Source: a virus. From it: 38,858 bases of DNA. Positions 15,500 to 34,235 of this stretch are shown here, in pieces (position 1 is the stretch's first letter; every line of letters starts with the position of its first letter). The stretch covers positions 1 through 38,858 of IMG/VR virus record IMGVR_UViG_3300023174_000341. One strand, 5' to 3'. Both the position numbers and the translations under genes were made by a program. Under the pieces are notes generated by a model. The model made no database searches, had not been told where the DNA came from, and was given only the letters and a program-made list of their open reading frames with translations.

Positions 15500-18412
15500 A
15501 TGGTGCCGTTGCGTTTTTTAACGCAGGTTCTGCCGCCTCCGGGCAACGGGTATTACTGTGCCGCAGAACTATCGCGTAAGAAAGAGCATGTCTTTGGTGA
15601 AAGCATTGAAGACCTGCAAGCTAAGATCGACGAATGGAACGAAAGAAAGTATGACGTTTATTTTGCGCTAGCCACATTCAAGGAAAGCCGCAGCCGAGAG
15701 GCAGTCAATGCACAGACCATCAAGTCGTTCTTCATCGACATGGATGGGTACGAAACTAAGAAGGCCGCAGCATTAGCGCTCAACGGGTTTCTTGAGAAAA
15801 CAGGTCTCTCCCAATTTGGGATACCGTGGATTGTCAGTTCTGGCGGCGGCATCCACGCTTATTGGCCGTTCACTGAGACCGTCAACGTAAGCATTTGGAA
15901 GCCGGCTGCTGAGAACTTCAAGCGCCTCTGTAAACAAGAGGGGCTGCACATAGACTGGACGGTGCCGGCAGATGCTGCGCGGGTGCTTCGTGTTCCGGGG
16001 ACATGGAACCACAAAAAGAAATACCCAGAACCCCGTGAGGTCAAGATACTGGCGGAAGGGGATACGTTTGTCTTTGAAGAATTCTTGGGCCAGATTCTCT
16101 CAAAGCTTGTCGCCCCTATGTTTGAGCCAGCCGCTCCACTTAATTTACCGGGTAAGCGCCCGACCAAGTCCGTTACGCAGCTAAAGCTTGTGGCCAATAG
16201 CGCCACAGTATTTAAGTTAGTCGAAGAAAAGTCGGGCTGTGGGCAGATCAAGTACTACCGCGAGCACGCCGCTCAAGATGGGATGGAGCCTGTATGGCGT
16301 GGGCTGCTGTCGTGGGCCAAGGTTTGCACGGATGCCGAAGAGGCCGCGTCTGACTTAACTGCGCTGCATCCGTACACTAGCGAGCGAATGAACGCGAAGC
16401 TTGCGGAGATTAAGGGGCCTTATCCCTGCATCAAGATGGACAGTGAAAACCCCGGTGTGTGTACATCGTGTGTACATTGGGGGCAGATTACTAACCCGCT
16501 CAAGTTTGGCCGCGAGATTCAGACGGACAACACCACGAAAGAAATCACGATCAACGCAACGGATGAAGACGCCGAAGAGGCGCTCTTCGGGATAGATGCG
16601 GAAGATGACGATGACGACGTAGTTAAGCCCGCGCCCATCAAGGTCACCCGCCCAGAGCCACCGCGCGGATTTAGTTACGGGATCAACGGCGGGGTGTATT
16701 GCCAGAAGGAAGAGAAGGACGAAGAGGGCAAGAAGATGACGGTGCAGAGACAGATTCTGCCCTACGACTTGTTTGTAATCGACATCCTGAAGTACCAGCA
16801 CGACCACCTAGTTCACATGGTAGCGGTGCGCCCGGACGGCCCGGTGCTGATCAACATGCCGCAGAAAGCGGCAGTAAGTAAAGATGAGACTGTTAAATGG
16901 CTGGCGAACCAGAACATTATTTCTTCGTACGGTCAGGGCAGCGACATCAACCTGTTCAACTATGTGCGGGCGTGTGTCGAGCAGGCATCACTCAACAAGA
17001 AGGTAGTTACGGTGCCGCTACAGGCGGGCTGGCAGGAAAACGGATCGTTTGTTTATAACGGCAGGATCTTCAACAAAGACGGCTCCGTTACTACGGTGCC
17101 CATGCCGGGGCTGGAGAACATCACTCGGATCACGCAGTCCAAGGGCACGTTAGAGGATTGGCGCAAGGTCTGGAACCTGTTTATCGAGCGCAAGATGTAT
17201 ACGCTCTTGGCTGTTGCGCTTGATTCGTTTGGCTGCCCACTAATGCACTTCACCGAGTACGAAGGGTTCGTATGGCACATCGGGGCCAACAAGTCTGGTA
17301 CAGGTAAGTCACTGACGCTAAGCGCCAAGGCAGGAGTCTGGGGTCACCCAGTGCATTACCGCACAGGGAAGGGCACATCGCCTGTGGCGATGCAGAACCG
17401 CGCAGGCAACTTAAACAGCATGCCCCTGCTAGTGGACGAGATAACCGGCCAGCACCGCAAAGATATGGAGTGGGCGCCGGGGTTCATCTTCGACATGTCT
17501 GAGGGCAAGGGCAAGGAGCGCATGGAGGCCGGCGCCAACAAGGAACGTGTTAACGACACCACGTGGGGATTAACATGTACGCTAACTTCAAATGAAAACT
17601 TAACAGATTACATGGCGGGTGCCCGCAAATTTAGCTCAAATGGTGAGCTATTGCGGATGCTGGAGTGGACGCCCAATGTGAAGTTGCACTGGAACGCAGA
17701 AGAACGCGAGACCCTGAAATTGCTTAAACGCAACTACGGTGTTGCCGGGGAGGCTTGGGTGCGCTGGATGGTACAGAACCGCAAAGTCATCAAAGACATC
17801 ATGCCCCAAGTTCACTTGCAGCTAGAGAAGGAATTTAAGTTTACGGATGACGAACGGTACTGGCATGTGGCATGCACCGAGGTGGTTACAGCGGGGATTT
17901 TGTTAAGCAAGAATTATGCCAACATAATAGATGTGCCTGTCCAGCACGTGATCGATGCGCTTAAAGAGTTGGTATTTAAAGCGCGGGGGAGTATCTCAAG
18001 CAATGTACGCAGCGCTGACGATGTGCTGAACTCATTTACTCGGGAGAACTACGGCGGGTTCATCGTTCTGAAGAAAGCCGAGGGTCGACTGCTGGCGGCG
18101 TGGGGTGATGGTGATACGGTAGAGAAATCAATCACGCGCTCGAAAGTGATGGGGCGTGTGGAACACGGGCTAATTAAGCCCGGATACATAGACTACTTCA
18201 TCGAAGAGAATTTACTCAGGCAGCACTGCGTCAGCATGAGCTTTGCATACAACGACTTTAAGACTGAACTAGCCCAGACACACGCGATTACGTACATCAA
18301 GAAAGATATGTTGGCCAAAACAGGAGGGCCAACCATGCGGGTGAACGCGCTACACATAAGCCGTAAGAAAACAGATGCCGACGAAGATTCATTATCCGTG
18401 GAAAAAGATTAG
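15500..18412 (+). CDS. Primase-helicase fusion (AEP-type primase plus SF3/DUF927-like ATPase), 970 aa
   Basis: The N-terminal part shows archaeo-eukaryotic primase motifs: FFIDMDG (D80, D82), SSGGGIHAYW (H119) and RVPGTWNHK. A cysteine-containing linker (CIKMDSENPGVCTSC, about residues 312-326) may bind zinc. The C-terminal part has Walker A GTGKS (600-604) and LLVDEIT as Walker B, followed by a DUF927-like helicase core (GTSPVAMQNRAG, LTSNENL). It would prime and unwind phage DNA for the polymerase at 4934. ATG 15500 is 12 nt after the HTH gene. The 3' end overlaps a short + strand gene. Confidence 0.88.
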   Translation: MVPLRFLTQVLPPPGNGYYCAAELSRKKEHVFGESIEDLQAKIDEWNERKYDVYFALATFKESRSREAVNAQTIKSFFIDMDGYETKKAAALALNGFLEKTGLSQFGIPWIVSSGGGIHAYWPFTETVNVSIWKPAAENFKRLCKQEGLHIDWTVPADAARVLRVPGTWNHKKKYPEPREVKILAEGDTFVFEEFLGQILSKLVAPMFEPAAPLNLPGKRPTKSVTQLKLVANSATVFKLVEEKSGCGQIKYYREHAAQDGMEPVWRGLLSWAKVCTDAEEAASDLTALHPYTSERMNAKLAEIKGPYPCIKMDSENPGVCTSCVHWGQITNPLKFGREIQTDNTTKEITINATDEDAEEALFGIDAEDDDDDVVKPAPIKVTRPEPPRGFSYGINGGVYCQKEEKDEEGKKMTVQRQILPYDLFVIDILKYQHDHLVHMVAVRPDGPVLINMPQKAAVSKDETVKWLANQNIISSYGQGSDINLFNYVRACVEQASLNKKVVTVPLQAGWQENGSFVYNGRIFNKDGSVTTVPMPGLENITRITQSKGTLEDWRKVWNLFIERKMYTLLAVALDSFGCPLMHFTEYEGFVWHIGANKSGTGKSLTLSAKAGVWGHPVHYRTGKGTSPVAMQNRAGNLNSMPLLVDEITGQHRKDMEWAPGFIFDMSEGKGKERMEAGANKERVNDTTWGLTCTLTSNENLTDYMAGARKFSSNGELLRMLEWTPNVKLHWNAEERETLKLLKRNYGVAGEAWVRWMVQNRKVIKDIMPQVHLQLEKEFKFTDDERYWHVACTEVVTAGILLSKNYANIIDVPVQHVIDALKELVFKARGSISSNVRSADDVLNSFTRENYGGFIVLKKAEGRLLAAWGDGDTVEKSITRSKVMGRVEHGLIKPGYIDYFIEENLLRQHCVSMSFAYNDFKTELAQTHAITYIKKDMLAKTGGPTMRVNALHISRKKTDADEDSLSVEKD

Positions 18413-18563
18413 CATCGGGCGTGGGTTCTTTGTGCCCACGCTTAGCCCCGACAAAGTAATTGAAGATGGACTAAAGGCCGCGGTTCGCTATCGCATTCGG
18501 CCCATAGCTACCTACGGGATCAAGGACGGCCTTATCGGAGTGTGGTTCCTTCGGCGACTTTGA
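18375..18563 (+). CDS. Conserved small phage protein, 62 aa
   Basis: ATG 18375 starts inside the end of the primase-helicase gene. The product MPTKIHYPWKKISIGRGFFV, then PTLSPDKVIEDGLKAAVRYRI and GIKDGLIGVWFLRRL, follows a pattern (YPWxxIxxGxGFFVPT, GLxxALRYRI) that I recall from phage hypothetical proteins. Its last 32 nt overlap the 3' end of the giant minus-strand gene. A hairpin at 18419-18441 (GCGTGGG arms) lies inside it. It is the last + strand gene before the strands converge. Confidence 0.72.
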   Translation: MPTKIHYPWKKISIGRGFFVPTLSPDKVIEDGLKAAVRYRIRPIATYGIKDGLIGVWFLRRL

Positions 18564-21500
18564 GGAAGTTACGCGACAGCGCAAGCTGAGAGATGTACAG
18601 ATTCTCCAGTGCCACATCCTTCTGTTCCGTAGTCATTTGTGGCGAGGACTTGATCATACGCGCCTGCTTGGACATCTCGCCCAAAGTCTTCTTCATGTAG
18701 CCGGCCATGCTCGATGCGGCCAAGACCGAAGCGTTTTCGTTGGCAAACTTGATGGCTTCTTCGGGTTTGCCGTCCTGAATAAGTTTGTTGTACGCGCCCT
18801 TGTACTGCTGAATTTCTTCGATAAGCTTGTACGTAGCATCGAGCGCGCCGCGGCCTTCAGAAGTTTGGAAGAGCGAGCCAAAGAGCGGAACCTCTGAGAG
18901 CTTTGTAGTGGGCTGCTCCACATTCGCAGCTTCCGGCGCGCGCAGAAACACGTTGGCCATTTGGGTGATCGCCATACCCACACCGCCGGTATAGCCGCGG
19001 ATCAGATAATCAATTTGGATTGGCGACAATCCACCCACACCGCCGAGCATCTTGGCAAGCTCCGTGCTGTTGGTACGGTAGCGGTACTGCGGCAGGATTT
19101 CTTTTTCGTGTGGCGACTCAATAGGCCCAGAATAGAACGATGAACCAAGCATCACTTCTGTTATTGGCTTGAGTGCTTGCGGCATGCTAAGCGGCTGAGA
19201 TTGGCTAAGCAAACGCCCGAGCGCTTCCATTCCGGGACCAACCTTCTCATCGCCCATCGCCATGTTAACAATAGCTTCGGGCAGAGCCTTGAAGAAGAAT
19301 CCAACTTCGTATGGGATTGGGATTTTTATCCAGTTCTCTTTGGTCAAACCCAACGTCGGCACCCACCAGTTGCCGTAGCGCTCCTCTGGCTTAGCGCGTT
19401 TGTAGTCCTCATCGTCTTGCATGATCGCGGCATATGCCACGGATGACATGGCCAACAGCGCAGCCCGCGCAGTAAACCGCTGCATGGTCGTAAGCTTATC
19501 GGCACCCGGCAACTGCCCGCGCATCGAGCGATACAGAACGTCCAGACTTTGAACCTGCGAGTGCATAAACGGCGTCAGACTGGCCAACAAGTACATACTG
19601 GGCGACGTCCCCCGGCGGCTAAAGTTCATCGACTCAAGCGTGCGCATCAACGCCTGCTGATGGGACATTCCCTTCTTGATCGAGTCTTCGTAGATCACCT
19701 GCCGGGTAGCCGCATCGGACTGCTGAGCGACCGTATCAAGCTTAGAAAATGCCCGTTGCAGACTCCACTTGCCGGCGGTCAAGTCTTCCAAGAACTTGGT
19801 CATGTCGCGGGCGTCGCCCACTAGGACGTTGCTGCTGGTCGCACCTGCACGCTGAAGCCGCTGCGCGGTGGTGTCTTTGCCGGTGGCCATTTTAGCCAGC
19901 GTTGAGAACGAATCAAGAATTGGGATCGTGTCCGTACCATTCTGCACCCACGCCGAAACAGGATCGCGCACAAGCTGGCGGAACATGTAGAGCGGATTGC
20001 GAACCGTGAACTTGCGGAAGATATCTCCCGGCATGCCAAGCATGCGCACAATCGCTGGCATCGCAACTTTGATACCCTCAAGACCCTCGACAATCATCTG
20101 TGCCGGGATGCCGTACATATCGGTATCAATGATGGCGTGATGCTCAACGCCATGCACTCGGAAGTGAACCACGTTATCCGTATACGGACCCTTGGACGCT
20201 ACGATCCGACTGGCAATACCCAGATCCTTGAGCACAAACGCCGTATCTTTAACGGTCTGGTTGCGCATCGCCATGTTGATCAGCATACTGGTGTTTTGTA
20301 CAGCACTAGTAAACACCGGCAGGATCTGTTCGCTATCGCCAAGCAGTTCTTTCAGGCGCGGTTCGCTCTTGATGTTGCCAATACGGATTGAGCGGCGCTC
20401 GTCACCCGTCTCCATGCGGATGTTGCCATCCTTGTCTACGCGGTAGAACGGCACGTAGGTGATCTGTTTTAGCTCAGCCGCTTTCTGTTTGGACATGGTG
20501 CCGGTCTGAACCAAGAAGTCCAGCAGCCCAGCGTTGTACGCCTGATAGATTTTTTCGGCTTCCTTGAACGCAGTCTCGTCAGCTTTGTTTTGCTTCAGGT
20601 GCGCGAGCACAGCCTTGTATTCGTTCTCGGCTTCGACCGGGTTATCAAAGCGTAATTTGTTCCAGCCAACTTGCTCAGCGCGCTTGCCTGCTAGGTAAAC
20701 TGTGAATGCGTTCTCGCGGTCTTCTTCCCTGTAGCCCTTGGCTTTCTCTAGGGCCTGTGCCATGCCAACTAGTGTCGGGCCACCCGCATCATTCTCGTAG
20801 AAATATTCGGTGCCGGCCTTGGTCTTTTCGCTGCGAAGACGCGGCGGCCCACTGGTAACGGTCTGCCCAACAATGTCGCTGCGCTGCTGACCAAAGCGCA
20901 GTGCATACATCAGGTTCTGTGCGCGCAGAGCATCAATCTTTTTATCGTCCAGTCCCTTCTTGACCACCTCTTCCAACGCCGCATACTGGTCAAAGATCCG
21001 CTGACGCAGCTTCAACGCGCGGGTATTGGTCTTGTCCTTGATCCCGGCAAGCGTAGCGTCCCGGCTACTTGCACCCGTCAGCCCCGTGTAGAGCGACATC
21101 AGATCATCGACAGTGCTGGTGCGTTGCGCAACGACAGACTTGGTGGGTTTGCGTGAGCGGTAGAGGACATCGCCTTCCTTGGCTGCTGGCTTACCCGAAG
21201 GTGCAACCTGCGCTAGCGCCTTCACCGTCTCGCTTGGCTTGGTGGTCACACCACTTACATACTTGTGCGAGTCGCGGATCAGGCGAATGATCTCGGAGTC
21301 ACCGATAGGAGCGCCCTTCCAGATGCCCCACTGCCGCAGCTTGGTACGGATAAGGTTTACCAAGCGGTTCATCCAGTTCAGCGACACATCCTTCTCGGCG
21401 CGCTCGGCGATGCTCTCCTCGGTCGCTACTTCCAGCGACATGTCGGGGTTGTCCTGCATCCGGGCGTTAGCTTCTGCCTTGATCTGCTTATTGTTCTGGT

Positions 21501-24500
21501 AGATCGAGCGCATCACTGCCGGGTACGAATTGCCCAGTACCCCGCGCAAACCAAAGTGACCAACCAGTTCGTGAGCAATCGTCTTGCCAACGTCCGCGCC
21601 ATCAATCAAGTTGTCGCCCACCAAGTAGATCGTCTTGGTTGGCGGGTGGAACATACCCGGCGCGCTCTGCGTACCGTCGCGCTCCATCTGCGCTTGGATC
21701 TTCTCAGGCAACTCCGAGATAGACTGAACCACCGTGATCTTGGGCGCCACTGGCAACTTACGGAATGGCGCTATCAAAGACTCAACATCATCGACGCGCA
21801 TCCCAACCGCAGGCTCCTCGCCCTTGGAACGGAACATTGCGTCCTGTTCATCTTTAGCCAAGGTGCCTTCGGCAGGCGGGGCGTTTTTGTTTTTGTTCCG
21901 CTTAGCTCTTCTCTCTGAAGCCGCCGCCGACTGCATTGTGTCGCCGATTCTTACAAGCTGGTCTTTCAAACTAGTCAGCGGAACTTCTTCCGTGCCAAGC
22001 AGCGCTATCTCTTCATCGACTCTGGCTTTGTCGATTACTTTAGTTTCTTCAAGCTGATTTAGCAGCGCCTGTACTTTTTGACTGTTATCTTCGCCGACAA
22101 CAGTCTCGGCTTGTAGCGCTTCAATCTGCTTGATTGCGTTTTCTATTTCTTCCGAATTAGCACCAAACCGTGCAGGCGTAACCTCAGTTTTACCCTGCGG
22201 TTGTTCAACAGCCTCGGCAGGTTTCATTGCTTCGCGGATCTCGCCAACCAATGTCGGGCTGGTTGTCCAGTTATTCCACGATGCCTTAAGCTGTTGCAGT
22301 TCCGCAATGCGGCGCTTGACTGCTTCCGGGTCTTTAATGTCGATCCCTTCAGCGGCGGCGAGCTTGGGATTTTTGCTAGCGCCCGTGATAGCACTTAGCC
22401 GTTGACCAACCTCACGTTGCTTTTGCGTAGCGATCTTGGCCATCTCTTGGGCTTCGAGCATGGCGCTCTCATCAAACCCAAACATGTCCGCCATGCCACC
22501 TTCGGCGGGCTTGGGCGCAATCACTTGAACTGCGCGCATTAGGTTGAGCGCTTCGGCAGCAGATTTAGACTGCGCGGCTTTGATTGCAACTGCTTGGATT
22601 CTTGAATCTTTTGGCGCTTCAATGGCCGCGGTTGCAGCCAGATCGTCACTAATCTGTTTAGCGCGGTGGGCAGCGATCAGTTCTGGGCTACCGTTCGTAG
22701 CGATCTCGATAGCCTCTTCGCCTTTGCCGCGCGTCAACCCGCGGGCATCTGCCTCTTCTTTTGAAAGCTGTGCGCCTTGGAAGTAGTTGACATAGTCGGC
22801 TACAGTGCCTTGACCATCGCGAATGTTGATCTCCGCATCCATCGTTGCGGCTTTCTTTTTATCAAACCCGGCAGCTTCATCAAAAACTTGCGCATCGATT
22901 GTTTGCCGCCCCGAGCGCTTGGCCAGATCCCAACGGTGCCGCCCGGAGATAATTTCTAAGCTGCCATCGAGGCGCCGCCATAACTGAATGGGCGCTACAC
23001 CATAGTCCGCAAATTTGCCCTTGAGCGGTTTAACGACACCTTCCGTATTTGCTTCCGCCTTGAACTGCGGCACATCTTGAGATAGCTTGAGTTCATTGAC
23101 CGGAACCTTGACTACGGGCACACCTTCAATCGCATGCTGAACTGGGCCAACAGGCGGCGCTTCTACTTTTGGCGTCTCGACCTTCGGTACTTCAGGTGCA
23201 GCAGGCGCTTCAGCCGTAGGTGCTTTTATGATCTCGCGTTTATTGCGTTTATCCAGCGGCGTAACAACACCGGCCTTTTCAAGATCAAGCAATAACTGTG
23301 CCGCAGTTTGCTTTTTAATATTAAGCCCTTCAGCGAGATGGCTTACAGTAGCTTTGCCGGTGTCGCGCACAAACTTCGTGGCACGGTCCAGATCCACATC
23401 TCCAAACATCTCCATCGGTGTGGGGAGATCAAACGGCGCAGTTAGATCGGCCACAGATCTAGCCCCAAACATCTCGTATGGAGTTGGGAAATCGTATGGC
23501 GTGATTGATGGGGGTGCGGCCTGTTCTTGCGCCGCGGGTTGTTCTGTTGGTGCAGCTTGTTCTGTTGGTGCAGCAGGCGGGGTTCCTGCAAGCTGTTCCT
23601 CAACCGTAGTGCGGGGCGCACGGCCTTCAACCAAGTCACGCTTTTCTTGAAGCTTGTTGATGCGCTCCGAGACTTTACGCATGACATCAAAGTCACCAAC
23701 TTCAGCGGCTTTGGTCAGTTCCTTTTGCGCGGCATCGAGCTTTTTATCTAGCGCGATAGCCGTTTCCGTTGTACCGCCCGCAGCCTCAACAGCTTTGCCA
23801 AGCTTATCGAACTGATCGGTCAGCGCCTTCCACTGGTCGTGCAGATCAATGATGGTTGCCGTATCCCCACTAAGACCGGCCATTTGCATCTGAGCGCCAA
23901 GCTGATCACGCTGCTGGAATAGCGCGTCATACTGATCCATCAAATCCGTAACTGTTGGCGGTGAGGGCGGTGGAGCAGATGTAGTTGGTGCGGCGGGTGC
24001 AGCCGCAGGCTGTGCTGCTTGGCGCTGGGCAACCAGCGGCTTAATTAAATTTTCGCGTTGCCGGTATTCATCACGCAGTGGCTGGAGAACATTCTCCATG
24101 TGATCCGACGCCGCTTCACGGGCGCCAGCCGTTTCCTCTTCCCACTTGGCGTACTCTTCAGGTTTTTTCTTTTTGCTTGGCGCTGCCGGTATTAAGCTGG
24201 CCAACCGCTTAGCCTCTTCTTTGGCTGCGGTATAGTCATCGTGCAGCTTGAGCAGGTTCGCCGGCTGAGTAGCCGCGGCTTCTTGTGCAGCAAAAGCATC
24301 GGCGGCGGCTTTTTGTTTACGCTTCTCAATCTCGCTGCGTGCTTCACCGCGCTCACTGATGCGGCCCAGACCCCCTAACGGGGACAACAACCCGGCCTGA
24401 TAAGCCGCGCTGCCGTACTCAGCTAATGCTTCGTCGTTCATTAGCGGCAGACCAGCCTGCGCCCGCTCAAGTATCTGCTGCGTAATCTCGGTGGGTATCT

Positions 24501-25320
24501 CGACCGTACCTTTGGCTGTACCCTTCAGTAGCGTGCCAGCACTTACTTCGCCTCTGCTTAACCGCGGCAACAGCTTTTCTGCTGCCAGCTTCTCTAGTTC
24601 TTGCGCGGACTTTTTAGCGACTTGCTCATCGGTAAAGCCCATCAAGCGCCCAACCAACCCCTTGCCAAGTAGCAAACGATCCGTGAAAACATCCAGCGCC
24701 GCGCCGGGAATCGCTGCCCCATAAGCAGCTAGCGGATTTACATCAACGGGTTTGCCTTCAGCCATCTGCGCGCGAGCTTGCGCTTCCAAGTTTGCCCCGG
24801 CTGTTGGGACATACGAAGATAAGAACTGCCCGACCCCAGCGCCAATCCCAGCGCCAACCCCCGCACCAATAGGCCCAAAGAACCTACCAGCCATAGCCCC
24901 TGCGCGAGCGCCTGCCCCCATCGAGGCTAGCTGCGGAACCTGCTCAGCAATTGCGTATGGGACTTGACCTAGCGCTTCACCAGCAGCAGACAGCACGCCG
25001 TTTTTTTCGTAGGCTTCTTTGACTTTTTCTAGCGATACTTGACTAGGTCGAGCCTTCTCAATCTCTTCCATGCGGGCAACACCCGCCTTGGCTGCTTCGC
25101 TACCGCCGCCTAGACCCGTACGAAACTGCGAGCCATATCTTTGCGCCCCACCAATAAGCGCAGAACCAATACCCGTCTTTGGTGCAACTTCTGGTATTTC
25201 TGTTTTGGTGCCGAATGCATCTGGATACAACTGCGACGCGGCATACATGCCGGCCATCGCATCCTGCCCGGGCTTTAATTGAAAGTACGAACCGTCAGGC
25301 AGTTGAATGTAGCCGACCAT
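18532..25320 (-). CDS. Giant polyvalent internal virion/ejection protein, 2262 aa
   Basis: Domains, N to C: a glycine-zipper region (about 130-170, GPIGAGVGAGIGAGVG) that may insert in membranes; Ala/Glu/Gln-rich coiled coils (330-600); a winged-helix segment (about 645-695, SHLAEGLNIKKQTAAQLL); a ParB-like nuclease domain (about 735-900, ISGRHRWDLA near 790); a putative zincin with H1250-E-x-x-G-H1255; and a long region (about 1430-2150) resembling LPD38 of phage polyvalent proteins (NPLYMFRQLVRDP near 1770, LTPFMHSQVQSLD, WIKIPIPYEVGFF near 2000). Such proteins are packaged and ejected with DNA. ATG 25320 lies 5 nt after the previous stop, without a clear ribosome binding site. The 3' end overlaps the + strand gene at 18375. 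Confidence 0.82.
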   Translation of the reverse strand: MVGYIQLPDGSYFQLKPGQDAMAGMYAASQLYPDAFGTKTEIPEVAPKTGIGSALIGGAQRYGSQFRTGLGGGSEAAKAGVARMEEIEKARPSQVSLEKVKEAYEKNGVLSAAGEALGQVPYAIAEQVPQLASMGAGARAGAMAGRFFGPIGAGVGAGIGAGVGQFLSSYVPTAGANLEAQARAQMAEGKPVDVNPLAAYGAAIPGAALDVFTDRLLLGKGLVGRLMGFTDEQVAKKSAQELEKLAAEKLLPRLSRGEVSAGTLLKGTAKGTVEIPTEITQQILERAQAGLPLMNDEALAEYGSAAYQAGLLSPLGGLGRISERGEARSEIEKRKQKAAADAFAAQEAAATQPANLLKLHDDYTAAKEEAKRLASLIPAAPSKKKKPEEYAKWEEETAGAREAASDHMENVLQPLRDEYRQRENLIKPLVAQRQAAQPAAAPAAPTTSAPPPSPPTVTDLMDQYDALFQQRDQLGAQMQMAGLSGDTATIIDLHDQWKALTDQFDKLGKAVEAAGGTTETAIALDKKLDAAQKELTKAAEVGDFDVMRKVSERINKLQEKRDLVEGRAPRTTVEEQLAGTPPAAPTEQAAPTEQPAAQEQAAPPSITPYDFPTPYEMFGARSVADLTAPFDLPTPMEMFGDVDLDRATKFVRDTGKATVSHLAEGLNIKKQTAAQLLLDLEKAGVVTPLDKRNKREIIKAPTAEAPAAPEVPKVETPKVEAPPVGPVQHAIEGVPVVKVPVNELKLSQDVPQFKAEANTEGVVKPLKGKFADYGVAPIQLWRRLDGSLEIISGRHRWDLAKRSGRQTIDAQVFDEAAGFDKKKAATMDAEINIRDGQGTVADYVNYFQGAQLSKEEADARGLTRGKGEEAIEIATNGSPELIAAHRAKQISDDLAATAAIEAPKDSRIQAVAIKAAQSKSAAEALNLMRAVQVIAPKPAEGGMADMFGFDESAMLEAQEMAKIATQKQREVGQRLSAITGASKNPKLAAAEGIDIKDPEAVKRRIAELQQLKASWNNWTTSPTLVGEIREAMKPAEAVEQPQGKTEVTPARFGANSEEIENAIKQIEALQAETVVGEDNSQKVQALLNQLEETKVIDKARVDEEIALLGTEEVPLTSLKDQLVRIGDTMQSAAASERRAKRNKNKNAPPAEGTLAKDEQDAMFRSKGEEPAVGMRVDDVESLIAPFRKLPVAPKITVVQSISELPEKIQAQMERDGTQSAPGMFHPPTKTIYLVGDNLIDGADVGKTIAHELVGHFGLRGVLGNSYPAVMRSIYQNNKQIKAEANARMQDNPDMSLEVATEESIAERAEKDVSLNWMNRLVNLIRTKLRQWGIWKGAPIGDSEIIRLIRDSHKYVSGVTTKPSETVKALAQVAPSGKPAAKEGDVLYRSRKPTKSVVAQRTSTVDDLMSLYTGLTGASSRDATLAGIKDKTNTRALKLRQRIFDQYAALEEVVKKGLDDKKIDALRAQNLMYALRFGQQRSDIVGQTVTSGPPRLRSEKTKAGTEYFYENDAGGPTLVGMAQALEKAKGYREEDRENAFTVYLAGKRAEQVGWNKLRFDNPVEAENEYKAVLAHLKQNKADETAFKEAEKIYQAYNAGLLDFLVQTGTMSKQKAAELKQITYVPFYRVDKDGNIRMETGDERRSIRIGNIKSEPRLKELLGDSEQILPVFTSAVQNTSMLINMAMRNQTVKDTAFVLKDLGIASRIVASKGPYTDNVVHFRVHGVEHHAIIDTDMYGIPAQMIVEGLEGIKVAMPAIVRMLGMPGDIFRKFTVRNPLYMFRQLVRDPVSAWVQNGTDTIPILDSFSTLAKMATGKDTTAQRLQRAGATSSNVLVGDARDMTKFLEDLTAGKWSLQRAFSKLDTVAQQSDAATRQVIYEDSIKKGMSHQQALMRTLESMNFSRRGTSPSMYLLASLTPFMHSQVQSLDVLYRSMRGQLPGADKLTTMQRFTARAALLAMSSVAYAAIMQDDEDYKRAKPEERYGNWWVPTLGLTKENWIKIPIPYEVGFFFKALPEAIVNMAMGDEKVGPGMEALGRLLSQSQPLSMPQALKPITEVMLGSSFYSGPIESPHEKEILPQYRYRTNSTELAKMLGGVGGLSPIQIDYLIRGYTGGVGMAITQMANVFLRAPEAANVEQPTTKLSEVPLFGSLFQTSEGRGALDATYKLIEEIQQYKGAYNKLIQDGKPEEAIKFANENASVLAASSMAGYMKKTLGEMSKQARMIKSSPQMTTEQKDVALENLYISQLALSRNFLKVAEGTTLR

Positions 25321-25325
25321 AATTA

Positions 25326-27491
25326 TTAAGGTTGTGTGCGAACAAGTGCGTTTCTAGGGGGTGTGGTTACCGTTTGTCCCGCGCCAAACATCGCCAAAAA
25401 CTGAGCGTACGTCATCGGCTTATCGTTAAGATTATTAAGCCCGGGTTTCCAGTCAGTTAAGTACTTAGTGTACGCCGTTTGTGGCTGGAACTTTTCATGG
25501 GAAAGAATTTCAAGTCCAGATTTTATCTGCTCTGGGGTGCCCACTTCTCCGGGTTTAGCGCCGCCCAAGAATGCCGCAGCGCGAACCGACTCCGGCGGTA
25601 GAGAGGCTTTAAACAAATCAGACGTTCTTTGTGCTGCAATTTGCGCATTAGATCTGGCGGTGGCTCCCATTTCGCTTGCAGCATGTCGTGCCGTTGCCCC
25701 TTGTTCGCGTATGCCTGTAAGGTAAGTTTCATTTTCCGCGCCAAATTGAGCAAGCTTAAAGTTATTAACTACGTCTTGTGCGTGATTAAACGCAGTCAGT
25801 GCGGCGGTACCTTTCTGGCCAAAAACAGCTTCGCCAATACGCATCTTGTTGTTGTTTGCGTCAGTTTCAATTTGGTCTGCGCGCATACGCAGCGCAACTT
25901 CTCGATCAAAATCTCCTCGCGCCGCAGCATCCTGCGCTGCTTCAATGGTGACGCGCATCTGCATACGCTTCTGTGCAAGTTCCTTGAATTCCTTATTGGA
26001 TTTCTGGAGTTCTTTAGCGCCTTCGGTTGCCCCAGCGCCCACGTTACGAAGGAACGCACCTAGCCCCTTGCCTCCGTATGGAGACTCCATCATTTTAAGA
26101 CCTGCCATCATTATGGCCATGCCCCGCGCTTTTTCTTTTTCGCCTACCTCATTAAACTCTTCCGTGTCAAGTTTTTCGGCTAGTTTCTTAAAAGGCGCTG
26201 CCGGTTTACTAAGGCGTACAAACTGCTCAGTTTCTTCTGCTCGACCAAGAGCTTCTGCTCTAGCTTTGTCTGCTTGTGCGTAAAGCGCTTTAGGATCAAA
26301 AAACTGCCCTACGTTCTCCATTGCTTTTTCGGGGGTAAGCGTTGGGGGTGGGGTTAGTGTTGGTGGCCCACCCGCTCTCACTAAACTAGCCAGACCTGCG
26401 CGTGGTCCGGCGCCCGTACTTGCTGCTGCCGGCACTGCCGGCACTGCGCCCATAGAACGATATAAGCCTTCATAGGTTGTCGGCAAAGCAGCAGCCGCCG
26501 CAACAGCGTCGCTACTCACAGGTTCGCGATTTCCTAAAGCCCTGTCTTTAAATGCCCCTTGTCCGGGCGTCATTGGTACGACCCCACCACCCGGCACAGC
26601 ACGAATCCGCCCTGCTTCAAGATCGGTAGAAAACTGCCTAAGATCGGGCAAACGATCCGTTGCGTTTCCAAGATTTGTTCTTGTCGGTGCAATGCCGCTA
26701 CTTGGCGATTCCTCTCGGCTTATAAAAGGATTGCGGTCGTTTGGTCCAACTGCTGGCGCCTCTCCCATCATTCGTGGATTAGGTATTGGCGTCGGCATTG
26801 GCATTGCCTCGCCAAGATTTTGCGCTTTAAATTGCGGAACGGCAATACCACTAGCTGTTGCCGGTGTGTACGGCAGATTCCTTGGGGGCGCCGAGTCAGC
26901 GTTCTGCCTGTTCTGGATAAACCGCTCAATTGCATCATCGGACAGGCCAAGAGATCTACCCTGCGCACGGATCGCGTCTAAATCAAGCCCACCACCAGCC
27001 ATACGCACAACATGCTCTTCATCATCGGCGTAACCAGCGATCCCGCCGTCAGCCATGTTCTGGATATTCTGAGCAGGCAAACTAGCTAGACCTTGCGGGG
27101 GCGCGCTGGGACCGGAAGGTGGGGGCATCTGTGGAGTGGGCGGCATAGCCGGTGGCATCTGCATACCCGGAGGCGCAGCCGGAGGCATACCCTGCGGTGG
27201 CATCGGGCCTTGTGGCCCTCCGGGCGGGGGCATGGGCGCTCCACCTTGACCGCCAATAGATTGCACAACTTGCTGCGCTACGGTCGGGGGTTGCTGTCCG
27301 CTCAACATTGCCAACGCTTTGGAGTGCATCTCCTTGGCGTCATTGACCGCTTGGTTGGCAAGGCTCAACCTAACAGCGTCGTCTTGGTGTGTCTGTGCAT
27401 ACTGGCGCAGCATTTGAATGGCTTGTGGGGTACCGACTTGCGCTAGCCGCTGAAGCTGCGCCTCTTCTCTGGCAATGTTCTCATGCAGCAT
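25326..27491 (-). CDS. Pro/Met/Gly-rich internal virion protein, 721 aa
   Basis: ATG with AAGG upstream. The N-terminus is a helical stretch (LQRLAQVGTPQAIQMLRQYAQ). Residues 85-135 are a Pro/Gly/Met low-complexity tract (PMPPPGGPQGPMPPQGMPP). NMADGGIAGYADDEEHVVRMAGGG (about 145-168) is a motif seen in large virion proteins of short-tailed phages. The C-terminal half is coiled coil (residues 440-640). It lies directly upstream of the giant ejection protein gene and probably belongs to the same structure. No enzyme motif is visible. Confidence 0.68.
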   Translation of the reverse strand: MLHENIAREEAQLQRLAQVGTPQAIQMLRQYAQTHQDDAVRLSLANQAVNDAKEMHSKALAMLSGQQPPTVAQQVVQSIGGQGGAPMPPPGGPQGPMPPQGMPPAAPPGMQMPPAMPPTPQMPPPSGPSAPPQGLASLPAQNIQNMADGGIAGYADDEEHVVRMAGGGLDLDAIRAQGRSLGLSDDAIERFIQNRQNADSAPPRNLPYTPATASGIAVPQFKAQNLGEAMPMPTPIPNPRMMGEAPAVGPNDRNPFISREESPSSGIAPTRTNLGNATDRLPDLRQFSTDLEAGRIRAVPGGGVVPMTPGQGAFKDRALGNREPVSSDAVAAAAALPTTYEGLYRSMGAVPAVPAAASTGAGPRAGLASLVRAGGPPTLTPPPTLTPEKAMENVGQFFDPKALYAQADKARAEALGRAEETEQFVRLSKPAAPFKKLAEKLDTEEFNEVGEKEKARGMAIMMAGLKMMESPYGGKGLGAFLRNVGAGATEGAKELQKSNKEFKELAQKRMQMRVTIEAAQDAAARGDFDREVALRMRADQIETDANNNKMRIGEAVFGQKGTAALTAFNHAQDVVNNFKLAQFGAENETYLTGIREQGATARHAASEMGATARSNAQIAAQRTSDLFKASLPPESVRAAAFLGGAKPGEVGTPEQIKSGLEILSHEKFQPQTAYTKYLTDWKPGLNNLNDKPMTYAQFLAMFGAGQTVTTPPRNALVRTQP

Positions 27492-27500
27492 GACAATACC

Positions 27501-29507
27501 TTAGTGCATTCTGGCAAGAATGAGGGAAGACAATCCACGCGGCTGACGAATCATACCGCCTTTAGCTTTAAAAAGATTAGCCGCACCAATCGCAGCCGTA
27601 CCAAAACCAGCCGCTTGCGAAGCCAGACTTGGCGCTTGTTGATATACAGCCTGCGTCTGTTGAGTCAACGGCACACCACGCAACACGTTTGAGAGTTGCC
27701 CAATCTGTTGGAATGGGAAGTTCTGCTGGTTGAGGAAGTCGTTGTAGTTCTGCGTTAGCTGCTGCTGTTGGTAATTTTGTGCCTGCAAACCCATCTGATT
27801 CTGGGCGTTGGCAATATTCATCTGCTGATTATTGTAGTTAGCGCCAAGGTTGGCGTAGTTCTGCATGCCCTGCATACCGGCGTTAAGCGCTTGCAACCCA
27901 TACCCTGCGCCATACTGGTTGGCTTGTTCTTGCAACTGGTTTGCTGCCTGACCATATTGCGCGGCGTTAGCAGCCGAAGCCATCTGTTGCCCGTAGCCGT
28001 ACTGATTGGCTAGCTCTTGTTGCTGTTGCGTAGTAAGTCCCGCTTGCTGGTTTGCCAACTGCGCCTGCAACGCCTGCTGGTTGTACAATTGCTGCACACC
28101 AAGATTAGCTGCAAGGTTCTGTTGCCCCGTAGTTAATCCGGCTTGTTGGTTAGCAAGATTAGCTTGTTGCGCAAGTTGCGCATTTTGCAGGTTGGCGGCT
28201 TGCCCAAACTGCCCCTGAGTCAGCCCGTATTGGCCAAGCATACTCTGGTTAGCCAACAGCCTTTGGTTGTTAGCCGCTTGATTAGCCGCGTTCGCGGCTT
28301 GCTGCATCTGCGCTTGAGTCAGCCCATACTGACCTTGCAATGACTGATTGGCTAGCTGTTGCTGTTGCGCAAGCTGAGCGTTTTGCAGCGCCGTGTTGTA
28401 TGCTTGCTGCTGATTAAACTGCCCTGTCTGAATCCCAGCGGCTTGGTTTAGTTGTTGTGCGGTAAGCCCAGTTTGTGCGCCAAGACCTTGCGTCTGAAGC
28501 AACGCGCTCAGATTTTGCACACCCGTCTGTTGCTGTACTTGCTGGTTAGCCAATGCCGCTTGGAGCGCCGCCTGTTGCTCAGTATTAAATTGCCCCTGCG
28601 CAGACTGAAACGCGCCCTGAAGACCTTGTGCTTGAATGTCAGCTTTTTGCGTAGCCAGATTACGCGCAGCTTCAGCATTTTCAATTGCTTCGCGTGACCC
28701 ACCAAACGCACCTAGCTGCGCCATCTGCGCAGACCGTTTAGTCGAGGCAATGTCTGCTTGGCGTTGAGCTTCCCGTTGCTGAATATCCACCACGCTCTGC
28801 ATGTACGGAGACATGTATGCGCTGGCGGCTCCGGGCTGAGTAAACGAGCTTGTCCCAACATTACCCGCCGCTTGCATCTGCAAATCGCGCAGTTGCGGGG
28901 CTGTTACCTTGTCATATCCAACAGCTTGTGGGGTGTACCCAAGTTGCTGCCCTTGATATGTTGGGGCCTGACCAAGCTGCGCAGCTTGCATCTGAGCGGC
29001 GTTATCAATAGTTGGCGCACGGCCTAACTGTGCCGCTCTTGCGGTAGTGCCCCGCACATCTTGGGGCTGCTCCATCTGAAAATACTGCGCGCCCTGCGGA
29101 CCCACCGATTGGTAATTAAACTGCCCTGCCCTGTACGCACTCGGCGCTTGATATTGATTACCGTAGGCGGTTGGGTTGTACGTGGATGTGCCTGCTTGCG
29201 CGGCCATGTTGTACGTATTTTGAAGCGCATTTGCCGCTTCTGCACCAACACCCAGTCCAGCAATTCCTTGATACGCTTGCTGGCTAAGTACGTCAGGCCC
29301 AGCAATCCGCTCGCCTTGGTATGTCTGGTAGGGTTTAAGCCCCGTAACAATTGGCGCACCGCTGGCGTCTTTGACTAGGTTGCCTTGCGCATCCCGCTGG
29401 TAATCATAAATCGCCCCTTCGGTAGCGCCGAGCATGCGCTCGACCTGCGCACGCGCGTAGTCGGGGATCGACGTCTGTGTTTGTACAATCTGTTGTGGAT
29501 CTGCCAT
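27501..29507 (-). CDS. Gln/Asn/Ala-rich repetitive structural protein, 668 aa
   Basis: ATG with AAGGA 7 nt upstream. After a normal N-terminus (IPDYARAQVERMLGATEGAI) the central 400 residues are dominated by Gln, Ala, Asn and Leu with recurring pieces such as LANQQAGLTT, QYGLTQ, QAAN and LQNAQLAQQ. The C-terminus has LFKAKGGMIRQPRGLSSLIL. The repetitive helical character and position suggest an elongated internal virion or ejectosome component. The function is inferred from context only. Confidence 0.68.
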   Translation of the reverse strand: MADPQQIVQTQTSIPDYARAQVERMLGATEGAIYDYQRDAQGNLVKDASGAPIVTGLKPYQTYQGERIAGPDVLSQQAYQGIAGLGVGAEAANALQNTYNMAAQAGTSTYNPTAYGNQYQAPSAYRAGQFNYQSVGPQGAQYFQMEQPQDVRGTTARAAQLGRAPTIDNAAQMQAAQLGQAPTYQGQQLGYTPQAVGYDKVTAPQLRDLQMQAAGNVGTSSFTQPGAASAYMSPYMQSVVDIQQREAQRQADIASTKRSAQMAQLGAFGGSREAIENAEAARNLATQKADIQAQGLQGAFQSAQGQFNTEQQAALQAALANQQVQQQTGVQNLSALLQTQGLGAQTGLTAQQLNQAAGIQTGQFNQQQAYNTALQNAQLAQQQQLANQSLQGQYGLTQAQMQQAANAANQAANNQRLLANQSMLGQYGLTQGQFGQAANLQNAQLAQQANLANQQAGLTTGQQNLAANLGVQQLYNQQALQAQLANQQAGLTTQQQQELANQYGYGQQMASAANAAQYGQAANQLQEQANQYGAGYGLQALNAGMQGMQNYANLGANYNNQQMNIANAQNQMGLQAQNYQQQQLTQNYNDFLNQQNFPFQQIGQLSNVLRGVPLTQQTQAVYQQAPSLASQAAGFGTAAIGAANLFKAKGGMIRQPRGLSSLILARMH

Positions 29508-29516
29508 GACTATTCC

Positions 29517-30656
29517 TTATGCGGGCAGCAGACGTTCTGCGTTTGTGTCGGTAGCTACTTTGTGTTTGCCAACCGTCTTTTGCCGCGCCTTCTGAACACG
29601 GTCCATCATTGCGTACAGTTTACGCGCACCTGCCTCGGTCGAGCCGTTGCCAATCTCAGACACGATGCGCGCTGGGACAACAAACTCCCCATCGGCTAGC
29701 CGCGCGGGTTGGCGATCCCCAATAGTTGCCGGGATGTTGTCCGACACACCATCACCGGGGCCGCGAAGCAAGCGCCCACCATCCGAGTAGCCGCCCAACG
29801 AACCTAGTCCACCTTGGTTGAATGCCACAACGCCGCCAGTAGCGGCTTTGTATGGCTCGGGCACATCGTACGTATCGGTAAAGTACCGCGCTTCTCCCTG
29901 CCCAGTGTAAGGTGTGGGGTTCTGTCGGCGGTTAAGAATGATTGGGCGGATCATCGCCTGCGGAGAAACGCTACCCAGCGTCGGCATCTTGGTTGTCTGG
30001 TTTGCTTGGATACCCGACATGATTGGTAGCGCCGTAGCTGCGAGTAAACCAGCGCCTTTCATAGTGCTGCCGCCGCCAAGCGTGTTGAGCGCTGCGCTGG
30101 GGTTATCCATTGCCGATGAAACGCCTCCGGCTAACTTTTCATAAGGCGTCATATTGGCTGTTGTATTTGCACCTAACTCAGCGGCGTATTTGGCTGCGTC
30201 TATATCTGATAGCCCTGCCGCACTTCCTCTAGCAAATCCAGCTTCTGCTGCCGCTTGCGACGCCGCATCTGAGCCAATATTCATCAGCCCACTACCAAGA
30301 CTTGCCCCACCGTACGCACCCAGCCCGGCCATGAGTCCTTTCTGCAAGCTTCCGGTAGCCAGAGCGCCAACGCCGCCAGTAATAAGGCCCGCCGTAAGGG
30401 GGCTGAGCGCACCGCCGGATAGGTAGGTAAGTGCAGCGCCAGCCAGCGGTGCTGCCACAGGTTTAATTGCTTTCCACGCCTGACTAAAGATGTTGGCTTC
30501 AGGCAAACCTGTGTGTGGGTTAATTGTCAGCGAGCCGCCGTGCGCCATAGCCAAACGCTGGAGTCCATGCACCTCATCTGGCGTTACGTGCATCAGCATT
30601 GAGTCGCCGTTGCGACCGTAGCCAGCCATGTGTTGGGCAAGATTATGTAGGCTCAT
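29517..30656 (-). CDS. Structural protein with hydrophobic N-half and GDGxSDxIPA C-domain, 379 aa
   Basis: ATG 30656 is chosen over the TTG at 30674 because it lies 2 nt after the previous stop and starts MSLHNLAQHMAGYGRNG. Residues 70-130 are Gly/Ala/Leu-rich (PLAGAALTYLSGGAL, LITGGVGALATGS) and could interact with membranes. The C-terminus holds GPGDGVSDNIPATIGDRQPA, then LADGEFVVPARIVSEIGNGST, a domain I recall from structural proteins of short-tailed phages. It fits the internal virion/ejection set. Confidence 0.7.
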   Translation of the reverse strand: MSLHNLAQHMAGYGRNGDSMLMHVTPDEVHGLQRLAMAHGGSLTINPHTGLPEANIFSQAWKAIKPVAAPLAGAALTYLSGGALSPLTAGLITGGVGALATGSLQKGLMAGLGAYGGASLGSGLMNIGSDAASQAAAEAGFARGSAAGLSDIDAAKYAAELGANTTANMTPYEKLAGGVSSAMDNPSAALNTLGGGSTMKGAGLLAATALPIMSGIQANQTTKMPTLGSVSPQAMIRPIILNRRQNPTPYTGQGEARYFTDTYDVPEPYKAATGGVVAFNQGGLGSLGGYSDGGRLLRGPGDGVSDNIPATIGDRQPARLADGEFVVPARIVSEIGNGSTEAGARKLYAMMDRVQKARQKTVGKHKVATDTNAERLLPA

Positions 30657-30658
30657 GA

Positions 30659-30988
30659 TTATCCAACTTTCCAATTCGTGCCGTCTGAATATACGGGCAC
30701 TTTAGTTGACCCGCCTCCGGCTACCGTAGATCCAAATGTAGACACAGAAGAATCAATTACGAACGACCTAGACCCCACACCAGCAGTGGACGCGCTTGGT
30801 AAATTGGCCACCGTTACGGGGGTTGATGCGCTTAGCTGCCGAGAAAAATTGTCAAGCTGGTTGAAGTACAACCGTAAGATGTTGTTAAGCTGGTCAATGT
30901 AACGCGGGTCGTACTCTTTCGTGGCATCCGGCAAACGCGGTGCGGCAAGTTTGTTGAGCGCATAGTCCGAAGTGACGATGTAAGTCAT
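30659..30988 (-). CDS. Hypothetical structural protein, 109 aa
   Basis: ATG 30988 overlaps the TGA of the nozzle gene. It has LPDATKEYDPRYIDQLNNILRLYFNQLDN (helical) and ends VPVYSDGTNWKVG, an ending typical of short tail-associated proteins. Place between the nozzle and internal proteins suggests a virion component. Function unknown. Confidence 0.65.
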   Translation of the reverse strand: MTYIVTSDYALNKLAAPRLPDATKEYDPRYIDQLNNILRLYFNQLDNFSRQLSASTPVTVANLPSASTAGVGSRSFVIDSSVSTFGSTVAGGGSTKVPVYSDGTNWKVG

Positions 30989-33129
30989 CTGCGACCGTCA
31001 GGTTTGATGTCGATTCGGGGAGCGCCCAACTGCCATGTAGTGCCAAGTTGGTTCGATTCTACTTTAAACGCCATCTGGCGTCCACGAACCCGAGTGTATA
31101 TTTGCCCAGTAAACTGCTCAACTGGAATTGCCGCCGTCCTTACTACGTTAGCGTTGTTTGTTCCGCCCACGGAAGGGGGCACGTTATATCCAGAGCCTGA
31201 GTTCTGGAGCGGGTACAAGTACATTGTGACTTGCGGGTTGGTCGCAGTCGATCCACGGAATGTGATGTCCGGAAGTATGCGCCAGATAAATCCAAACTGG
31301 TGCCCGTCACCAATATCAAATTCAGACGATGTAATGTATGCGTCAATCGGCTGACCCGTCAATGAGTCCACACAGTCGTTTACGCCGTTCTCATGCCAAA
31401 CAAGATTCTTAGAATATGTGGCGGCAACTGGGTAGTCATTAAGCCCGCTATCAAGCCATGCGGTGCGCCCCATCGTGCCGTAGTACCAGACGTTTTCTAA
31501 GTAGTTGTACACAACATACTTGTCTATGGTGTTGCTGTTAGTTGAGCAGTAAAACCACCAAACCTCATTAAAGCCTTCGTTCGTGCTGGCAAAGATCTGG
31601 TCGTATTGATTTGTGTTGATGTCTTGAAAAATGTACTGACGCAAGTCGCAACTAAGCGTCTGTATACGCCCGTCGTATTTGTAGAATTTGTCGTATCCCA
31701 TCCAGTACACAACGCCAGAAGCCAGCGCCACAGCGTTCTGCCCAACAATAGATATGTTGTCGCCAATAAGCTGAACTGGCCAAACATTTGGTGGCCCCAC
31801 ATACTGCATCGAATACACCGACGCATCAGTAAAAACAACAATCTCTTGCCGGTTCTGTATGTACGTAACAATCTTTGAGCCGTGCGACAACCGCACACTA
31901 CCCGCCTGATTGGTGATGGCGGGGTACCAAGTCGTTAGCGATTGTTTGTCAGACCACCGGATCAACATCGGGTCTAGCGTTGTATTTGTGATGTCGTTTG
32001 TCCCAAACACAATTGTGAACTGTAGCGTATCAGACACAGTGAAGTTGTTTTGGTACAGTGGGGCGTAGCCATCTGACCCGCCAATACTGGCTACTGGGTA
32101 TCCGCGAGCAGAAATGCTTTGCACTCCAGACTGCGTGCCCGATGTGTTTATTGCAGATCCGTTGTAGGTAGCAGACAAATTAAACGTGTTACTGCTGGAG
32201 TTAACCACGTAATAGACCGTACCCGGCACCAATCCTGTTGGTAGATATCCCGTAGTTGTGAGCGTTACCGCCGTACCATTGGGTAGCGAGTATCCAAAAG
32301 TAAAAACCGCAGGGCTGGCAATCGTTACGGTAAAGACGCTATCTCTGTACCCCGTATTAGCGTCCCAATAGTACAGCGGTGACCCGCGTGTACCGTAAAG
32401 CAGATTCTGCCCGTAGTTCATCTGGTTCCAAATCTGCAAGGGGTTGCCGGTTGAAGTGCTGCCGTACCCCCAAGTGCCGATAGTAGATGGCGGAGCATAT
32501 GTTGGTGGCGTCCCCCAAGTTCCTGCCCCCCAACCAGTAAGCGGCACAGCGTACTCTGGGCCGATATTAACTTGGTAAGAAATGTAAACGGTGCCGCCGC
32601 CCGTCGTGTTGGAGGCTGCTGTGCCAGAAACCGTGATGCTGTATGTGTTGGAAGATATGTAGGAAATGGTGTACTGCCCAACAGGAATAGTCACACCTCC
32701 CACTGTGGGAGCCGTACCGGAATAGTAAATATTTATGTAGCTCCCATTAAGCGCGCCGTGCCCGTTGTCGGTGATTGTCACCGTGGTATTACCACCCGAG
32801 TTAGTAGTGGTGTCTGTAGTAAACGGGTTAGAGAGCGTGCTGGTCTTGCGAATGGGCGTGACATCGTAGTAAGCGCCCCCGTTTTGGATGTAGAATTTTA
32901 GGTTTGTGCCCACACCCATCAATGTTTGCGCTGCCAGCGTCACCCAAGACCAGAGTGAACGGCATATGCCAAGGAACGTGTTGCCAGAAATCTGCAACCA
33001 ACCGCCAATTTTTTCTGGCGTACCCTGTCGAAAACGAATTTTGTCGCTGTCGTACCAACCACCTTCAGTTGTGTACCGCGTGTTTTCCCGGTTGACTCCG
33101 GGTTTGAACAGAATTTTCTGTAAAGGCAT
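30985..33129 (-). CDS. Tail nozzle-like protein (P22 gp10/T7 gp12 type), 714 aa
   Basis: N-terminus PLQKILFKPGVNRENTRYTT, then GGWYDSDKIRFRQGTPEKIGGW, and the C-terminal half with NRQEIVVFTDASVYSMQYVG, ALASGVVYWMGYDKFYKYDGR and VYNYLENVWYYGT, match the beta-propeller-like nozzle proteins of short-tailed phages. Two Thr/Ser/Gly-rich insertions (about 95-175 and 260-345) look like Ig-type decorations. The start overlaps the holin stop by one base (TAATG), and the end overlaps the next start. Confidence 0.82.
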   Translation of the reverse strand: MPLQKILFKPGVNRENTRYTTEGGWYDSDKIRFRQGTPEKIGGWLQISGNTFLGICRSLWSWVTLAAQTLMGVGTNLKFYIQNGGAYYDVTPIRKTSTLSNPFTTDTTTNSGGNTTVTITDNGHGALNGSYINIYYSGTAPTVGGVTIPVGQYTISYISSNTYSITVSGTAASNTTGGGTVYISYQVNIGPEYAVPLTGWGAGTWGTPPTYAPPSTIGTWGYGSTSTGNPLQIWNQMNYGQNLLYGTRGSPLYYWDANTGYRDSVFTVTIASPAVFTFGYSLPNGTAVTLTTTGYLPTGLVPGTVYYVVNSSSNTFNLSATYNGSAINTSGTQSGVQSISARGYPVASIGGSDGYAPLYQNNFTVSDTLQFTIVFGTNDITNTTLDPMLIRWSDKQSLTTWYPAITNQAGSVRLSHGSKIVTYIQNRQEIVVFTDASVYSMQYVGPPNVWPVQLIGDNISIVGQNAVALASGVVYWMGYDKFYKYDGRIQTLSCDLRQYIFQDINTNQYDQIFASTNEGFNEVWWFYCSTNSNTIDKYVVYNYLENVWYYGTMGRTAWLDSGLNDYPVAATYSKNLVWHENGVNDCVDSLTGQPIDAYITSSEFDIGDGHQFGFIWRILPDITFRGSTATNPQVTMYLYPLQNSGSGYNVPPSVGGTNNANVVRTAAIPVEQFTGQIYTRVRGRQMAFKVESNQLGTTWQLGAPRIDIKPDGRR

Positions 33130-34081: not shown

Positions 34082-34235
34082 TATTGTCCTTCATCTTGTT
34101 GATCTGCTCCCAAGCAGATTTCATCTTTTCCTCAAGGACCGCTACCCGCAAGTCAAGCTTAGAGAGCACGATGATGAGCGTCACAAGGCCAAGCAGCACC
34201 GGCCACGCTTTCAGGAAGAGTTCAACTATTTCCAT
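34074..34235 (-). CDS. Small membrane protein of the lysis cassette, 53 aa
   Basis: ATG 34235 to TAA 34076-34074. It has one N-terminal transmembrane segment (WPVLLGLVTLIIVL, about 11-24) followed by a charged helix (LRVAVLEEKMKSAWEQINKMK). The topology resembles a very short i-spanin or accessory holin. Its place, overlapping the HNH and endolysin genes, supports a lysis role. No outer-membrane partner (lipobox protein) was seen. Confidence 0.68.
   Translation of the reverse strand: MEIVELFLKAWPVLLGLVTLIIVLSKLDLRVAVLEEKMKSAWEQINKMKDNNG

Follow-up and report, generated by a model that had tools for sequence, protein, structure and literature searches.

A giant phage polyvalent protein with a constant LPD38 chassis and a putative, exchangeable zincin bracketed by a repeated motif

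An IMG/VR viral contig from a freshwater bacterial virus, analyzed here over its full 38,858 bp (the window), encodes a 2262-aa protein that joins an FtsK gamma-type winged helix, a weakly matching ParB-like module, a putative HExxGH zincin, and an LPD38 domain in a single chain, in agreement with the polyvalent character proposed in the initial annotation. The zincins of polyvalent proteins are presumed to cut the chain that carries them into functional pieces. On balance, we favor the view that this giant is a phage polyvalent ejection protein whose cargo is exchanged at short tags and whose zincin would process the chain itself. We also propose, more tentatively, that the AFRTR-type tags on either side of the HExxGH zincin may be both its self-cleavage sites and the joints of module exchange, the peptidase being obligatory and repeatedly replaced. 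Such an arrangement would amount to a cut-and-swap grammar, in which one constant chassis delivers a changing cargo.

Results

Gene and genomic setting

The giant gene (18532..25320) is an uninterrupted 2262-codon open reading frame with the extent first annotated; it runs from 25320 to 18532 on the minus strand, which had not been given. Near relatives with about 90% C-half identity retain a reading frame of 2042–3073 aa, arguing that the frame is real, and conservation of the N-terminal tag, M-x-x-Y-[IVL]-x-LP-[DN]-G, backs the assigned start codon. In one relative (L008, positions 4853–4855), the giant gene is split into ORFs of 1617 and 417 aa at the equivalent of window residue 1845, which may be a sequencing error or a genuine two-part form of the protein.

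The giant is the final gene of a leftward late operon, preceded by genes encoding 721, 668, 385, 109, and 714 aa (25326..33129, minus strand) that are transcribed toward it. It lies downstream of a virion structural gene, the 714-aa product matching a virion structural family. Late-gene contexts are also described for phage-type polyvalent proteins by Iyer et al. 2017 (PMC5512222). Two genes upstream of the giant, the 668-aa late protein (27501–29507) is Gln/Ala-rich without a family match, and may be another internal virion protein. A 970-aa DUF927 protein (15500–18412) ends the rightward replication operon, convergent with the giant gene. Beside the lysis genes, positions 34222–34662 encode a small protein with paired CxxC motifs and DHCHDS...GILCKRCN that resembles the recombination endonuclease VII or HNH family, and positions 37243–38292 encode a protein of unusual composition built from repeats of about 20 aa of the type VTGVQGTGxVGTV, possibly a tail or fiber protein.

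The window is probably a fragment, since nine related contigs measure 61–67 kb; it contains no exact terminal repeat of more than 15 bases. A near-identity search of a phage collection with the window returned no match, a terminase (PF03354) search of the related contigs found none, and a search of GTDB genomes with the chassis profile found no prophage or host.

A constant C-terminal chassis with exchangeable cargo

Residues 1392–2262 (18535..21147, minus strand) form a constant C-terminal chassis present in more than 80 contigs. An LPD38 domain (PF18857) occupies residues 1970–2146 (18883..19413, minus strand) near the C-terminus, with an E value of 4.2e-31 and 108.9 bits against a curated cutoff of 27. 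Its identity is certain, bearing out the LPD38-like C-half initially annotated. Searches of the PDB by sequence and with Foldseek returned no relative of the C-half or of LPD38, and the AF2 model of the C-half (pLDDT 63, pTM 0.53) allows no fold to be named.

A profile search of IMG/VR with the C-half confirmed 423 stretches, and the family analysis draws on the best 80 of these 423. Among those 80, the chassis is constant (29 invariant columns in a 58-row alignment) and the N-terminal header and coil are retained in most relatives, while the segment between header and chassis varies, comprising zincin2, ART (PF18760), an unknown insert (insX), YkuD, and others. Even the near relatives of the window, with about 90% C-half identity, differ by entire cassettes, and homology to them breaks at residues 1046–1050, 1147–1162, and 1374–1384. 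Two giants, L006 and L010, carry two different ADP-ribosyltransferase (PF18760) cassettes on C-halves about 90% identical, with the same DVLYRS endpoint.

A motif scan recovered a putative zincin-like signature in every full-length giant among the matches listed. The signatures, with the HExxH types read from the motif alone, are HExxGH, LHE[GSA][TV]HA, HEAVHA, HELLHTVT, HEILHH, and HEVGDH (the last in L019). A quick C-half tree with some long branches requires, by parsimony, no fewer than 12 switches of zincin type, or 7 when just the two commonest types are considered, and several swaps separate close relatives, including L026/L029 and L040/L050. Because the signature is always present and its type changes at least 12 times, peptidase activity, rather than one specific effector, looks to be required. 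From these sequence patterns, the peptidase appears obligatory yet interchangeable, and the other modules dispensable.

The HExxGH zincin and its bracketing tags

The predicted metallopeptidase domain of the window spans residues 1176–1371 (21208..21795, minus strand) and contains HELVGH at residues 1250–1255 (21556–21573, minus strand; H1250, E1251, H1255), exactly where the HExxGH had been placed. H1250, E1251, G1254, H1255, and E1302 (21415–21417, minus strand; on the helix after HExxGH) do not vary across 22 aligned modules with identities as low as 23%, and the invariance of the four signature residues supports the putative zincin initially proposed. No Pfam model reaches this region in a profile search of the protein, and it has no Foldseek match of its own. 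AF2 predicts the order helix–strand–helix–strand–strand–HExxGH helix–Glu helix, which fits the polyvalent MPTase core, including its HExxxH variant, as described by Iyer et al. 2017 (PMC5512222); an HExxxH helix followed by a helix bearing Glu is predicted, and peptidase activity is putative. The same paper treats HExxxH zincins as a clade within polyvalent proteins (PMC5512222), and HExxGH, initially noted as standing in place of HExxH, is accordingly an established variant there and no anomaly.

HExxGH modules are flanked on both sides by one motif with the core A-[FY]-R-[TS]-[RK] and the consensus G-x-x-A-[FY]-R-[TS]-[RK]. The window copies are DAMFRSKGE upstream (residues 1160–1168; 21817..21843, minus strand; at the cassette breakpoint 1162) and DVLYRSRK downstream (residues 1384–1391; 21148..21171, minus strand; at the ART-cassette breakpoint 1384). 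Among 14 non-redundant HExxGH modules, [FY]R occurs at −87 to −91 from the first His in 13 and at +125 to +145 in all 14, against a background of 0.0047 per residue; these counts are descriptive, since the sequences counted are those in which the motif was first spotted by eye. In either copy of the tag, the information content of the core [FY] and R columns is about 4.1 bits per column. When the downstream copy was matched against the 18 residues of the upstream stretch in 16 related, non-independent modules, the best match gave a within-protein p with a median of 0.018.

Both tags lie in predicted disordered linkers (model pLDDT <50). Next to the inserted zincin2 and ART cassettes, the points at which DNA homology picks up again are exactly residues 1162 and 1384. 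The tag precedes the chassis irrespective of the module before it. Giants whose zincin is of an HExxH type mostly have an FSF[KVT]S-like motif at the border and lack a second copy beside the zincin. Motif and zincin type agree in four pairs, disagree in none, and tie in two (p 0.125, not significant), and this correlation could reflect hitch-hiking with the swapped segment. The spacing of the upstream tag from the active site hardly varies, so the tag could mark a conserved domain edge instead of a cut site. Outside the family the tag is not general, a variant near the position occurring in only one of four more distant phage giants with HExxxH zincins. The observations on the bracket are consistent with self-processing sites that also serve as joints; the near-constant spacing, the lack of the bracket in HExxH-type giants, and this limited generality speak against cleavage. 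The passages searched in Iyer et al. 2017 make no reference to an AFRTR bracket (PMC5512222), and neither the bracketing motif nor the obligatory, swapped zincin was found in the literature searched.

The N-terminal header, FtsK gamma winged helix, and ParB-like module

The protein opens with a tag of 37 residues (MVGYIQLPDGSYFQLK...YPDAFG; 25210..25320, minus strand) that is conserved in relatives or replaced by alternative short tags. In P1 DarB, the first 30 residues are a capsid-targeting signal (PMC9024508), and by likeness to DarB the tag of the giant is a candidate virion-targeting or packaging signal. Of the glycine zippers in the initial annotation, a stretch at residues 135–171 (24808..24918, minus strand) was recovered; its match to the Pfam Gly-zipper_Omp family is weak (E 0.067 in the window, 0.0076–0.017 in relatives).

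The DNA-binding helix proposed earlier can be named. Residues 643–699 (23224..23394, minus strand) form an FtsK gamma-type winged helix, matched by Pfam FtsK_gamma at residues 644–698 with E 1.3e-6 and 28.4 bits in the full protein, and with 31.1 bits against a cutoff of 30.6 on the 340–1399 segment. A phmmer comparison with the solved FtsK gamma structures 2ve8 and 2j5o gives 1.5e-6. The AF2 model of the winged helix has pLDDT 85–88, and its Foldseek ranks 1–13 are all FtsKγ (2ve9_B: rmsd 0.9 Å, TMt 0.86, prob 1.00). It shares its fold and 34–37% identity with the Pseudomonas aeruginosa FtsK gamma domain (2ve8, 2ve9, 2j5o, 2j5p), and DNA binding is predicted; in contrast to the known context of FtsK gamma, the giant has no motor domain.

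Numbered after E. coli FtsK, the window domain replaces R1289 by E664, N1296 (a KOPS residue) by Q671, R1300 by Q675, and E1303 by L678, retaining only E1306 (E681). In E. coli FtsK gamma, R1289 contacts XerD, and R1300, E1303, and E1306 are KOPS residues (PMC5052618, PMC2680272); R1289E was the worse of the changes reported at R1289 (PMC5052618). The XerD-contacting Arg and most KOPS residues are thus replaced in the window. One relative (L090, 5222–5900) has a near-canonical FtsK gamma domain just after the coil region (Pfam 2e-20), in which the equivalents of R1289, N1296, R1300, and E1306 are retained, E1303 is replaced, and the KOPS-helix residues read GYNRAGR; from these residues, the L090 giant may really read KOPS or touch XerD. 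With L090 orthodox and the window diverged, the slot tolerates domains at differing divergence. Given the lost contacts, and the orthodox domain of L090 in the same slot, the residues make it more likely that the window domain binds DNA generally, or has been re-targeted, than that it reads KOPS.

A ParB-like module with a helical extension follows at residues 719–1050 (22171..23166, minus strand), with the GRHRWDLA pocket motif at residues 793–800 (22921–22944, minus strand) as first read. The initial annotation of a ParB-like nuclease holds as a distant superfamily resemblance, the nuclease being putative, and falls short of the curated Pfam cutoff: ParB_N scores 13.1 bits against 26.3 (E 0.0028 per genome). 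This is the sole match to that family in the genome, it lies exactly at the module, and it recurs at the same place in five records, with relatives giving E values of 2e-4 to 2e-3. The pocket follows the GxHRxxxA pattern with its Arg, and SGRHR-x-DLA is invariant between the window and its Vibrio and Shewanella homologs. The module is 49% identical across its length to modules in the giants of Shewanella phage X14 and of Vibrio phages, whereas the LPD38-half of the window shares about 22–27% identity with other phage records, a difference which suggests that the ParB-like module has been exchanged horizontally between phages. Its AF2 model is of low confidence (about 60), and it has neither a PDB sequence match nor a Foldseek match of its own. 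A DdrB-type ParB assignment (PF18763) was rejected, there being no match in the window or its near relatives and a match at 1.3e-39 in the control W03.

Discussion

Proposed function and alternative readings

An ejected internal protein is the best reading of the giant, given its place at the end of a late operon, the internal-protein slot occupied by relatives elsewhere, and the precedents of P1 and N4. LPD38 relatives lie in the internal-virion-protein slot of Pelagibacter phage HTVC204P and after the head genes in a Vibrio phage. We infer the packaging, ejection, cleavage, and DNA target of the giant as follows. The long chain would be produced in the late phase of infection, built into the virion, and delivered with the phage DNA into the host. 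From the N-terminus, the layout comprises a tag and a glycine-rich header, coil-like linkers, FtsK gamma, the ParB-like module, a tag, the HExxGH zincin, a second tag, and the LPD38 chassis. Chassis and header are the constant carrier, and the middle is a cargo bay with modules exchanged between phages at the tag positions, where the breakpoints lie. The zincin would most likely be self-processing, cutting at or near both tags during maturation or after entry, and splitting the chain into about 1–1163 (FtsK gamma and ParB-like), 1164–1387 (peptidase), and 1388–2262 (LPD38); the first of these pieces would go on to bind either the phage DNA entering the cell or the chromosome of the host. From the gene position and the precedents of P1 DarB/DdrB and N4 vRNAP, the initial description as a pilot protein and host-takeover toolkit is plausible.

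An obligatory, interchangeable, tag-bracketed peptidase, a feature absent from the initial description, is no weaker a pointer to self-processing than to an attack on host proteins. That the zincin is instead a host-directed effector, cleaving a host defense or regulatory protein, with the AFRTR tags mere linker or joint sequence, strikes us as rather unlikely: zincins do serve as effectors in other conflict systems (PMC5512222), and type swapping would suit an arms race over targets, but effector cargo should sometimes vanish, whereas the zincin signature is found in all full-length members while other cargo varies, and two copies of one tag bracket the HExxGH module. It is possible, at a level of belief that we would still call tentative, that the tags are recombination joints only, keeping the chain intact when modules are exchanged and having no proteolytic role. 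Breakpoints falling exactly on the tags would be expected of such joints, as would a tag before the chassis whichever module precedes it; conservation of the tag at the protein level, in modules only 23–32% identical to that of the window, would be unneeded for a purely DNA-level joint.

Little probability attaches to the view that FtsK gamma, by reading KOPS or activating XerD, brings in host XerCD or FtsK for action on the DNA of phage or host. The fold in the window protein is clear, L090 keeps four of the contact residues (R1289, N1296, R1300, and E1306, not E1303), and mobile elements are known to exploit XerCD, one encoding its own XerD activator, XafT (cited in PMC9765430). Against this stand E664, Q671, Q675, and L678 at the contact positions of the window, the absence of an integrase from the 12 related records searched, and the lack of any dif-like site clearly above shuffled sequence; on the same grounds (no site above shuffle, 0 of 12 records with an integrase, contacts lost), hijacking of XerCD for integration was rejected. 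Least probable of all is that the giant is an ordinary structural protein, or one that sets tail length, in which the enzymatic motifs survive as relics. The great length, the low-complexity linkers, and the annotation of most relatives as virion structural or hypothetical would be in keeping with such a protein, but catalytic-type residues are invariant across 22 diverged zincins, the zincin has repeatedly been replaced by other zincin types, and relatives contain ART and methyltransferase domains.

Comparison with known polyvalent and ejected proteins

The phage-type polyvalent proteins of Iyer et al. 2017 likewise combine nucleic-acid-binding, ParB-superfamily, zincin, and LPD38 domains, in one chain, and LPD38 is listed there as phage-only (PMC5512222). 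The particular domain combination of the giant was not found in the text read (PMC5512222), and its ParB-like module differs from that of polyvalent proteins in not being of the DdrB type. The giants of Shewanella phage X14 and Vibrio phage 1.183.O share an LPD38 domain near the C-terminus and the 49%-identical ParB-like module, and differ in having a methyltransferase domain, a HEMAH zincin-like motif, and no reported FtsK gamma match. P1 DarB and DdrB are large internal head proteins, DdrB having a ParB-superfamily domain and an MPTase and being processed (PMC5512222, PMC9024508); DarB is packaged through its N-terminus (PMC9024508), and both differ from the giant in their domain sets. The virion RNA polymerase of N4 is an ejected protein of about 3,500 aa with a zincin-like C1 domain (PMC12633501), but it carries an RNA polymerase in place of FtsK gamma and ParB and has HExxH in place of HExxGH. 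This zincin-bearing protein is packaged uncut (PMC5512222), which counts against self-processing.

In the literature found, virion processing is reported for P1 DdrB and no recognition site is described for any polyvalent-protein zincin; the conserved bracketing motif gives exact positions at which self-processing is testable. Phage polyvalent proteins are an already published type, of which the giant is a new member, and its family, with a constant chassis, a swapped peptidase, and exchangeable cargo, provides a natural map of the modules that an LPD38 carrier tolerates.
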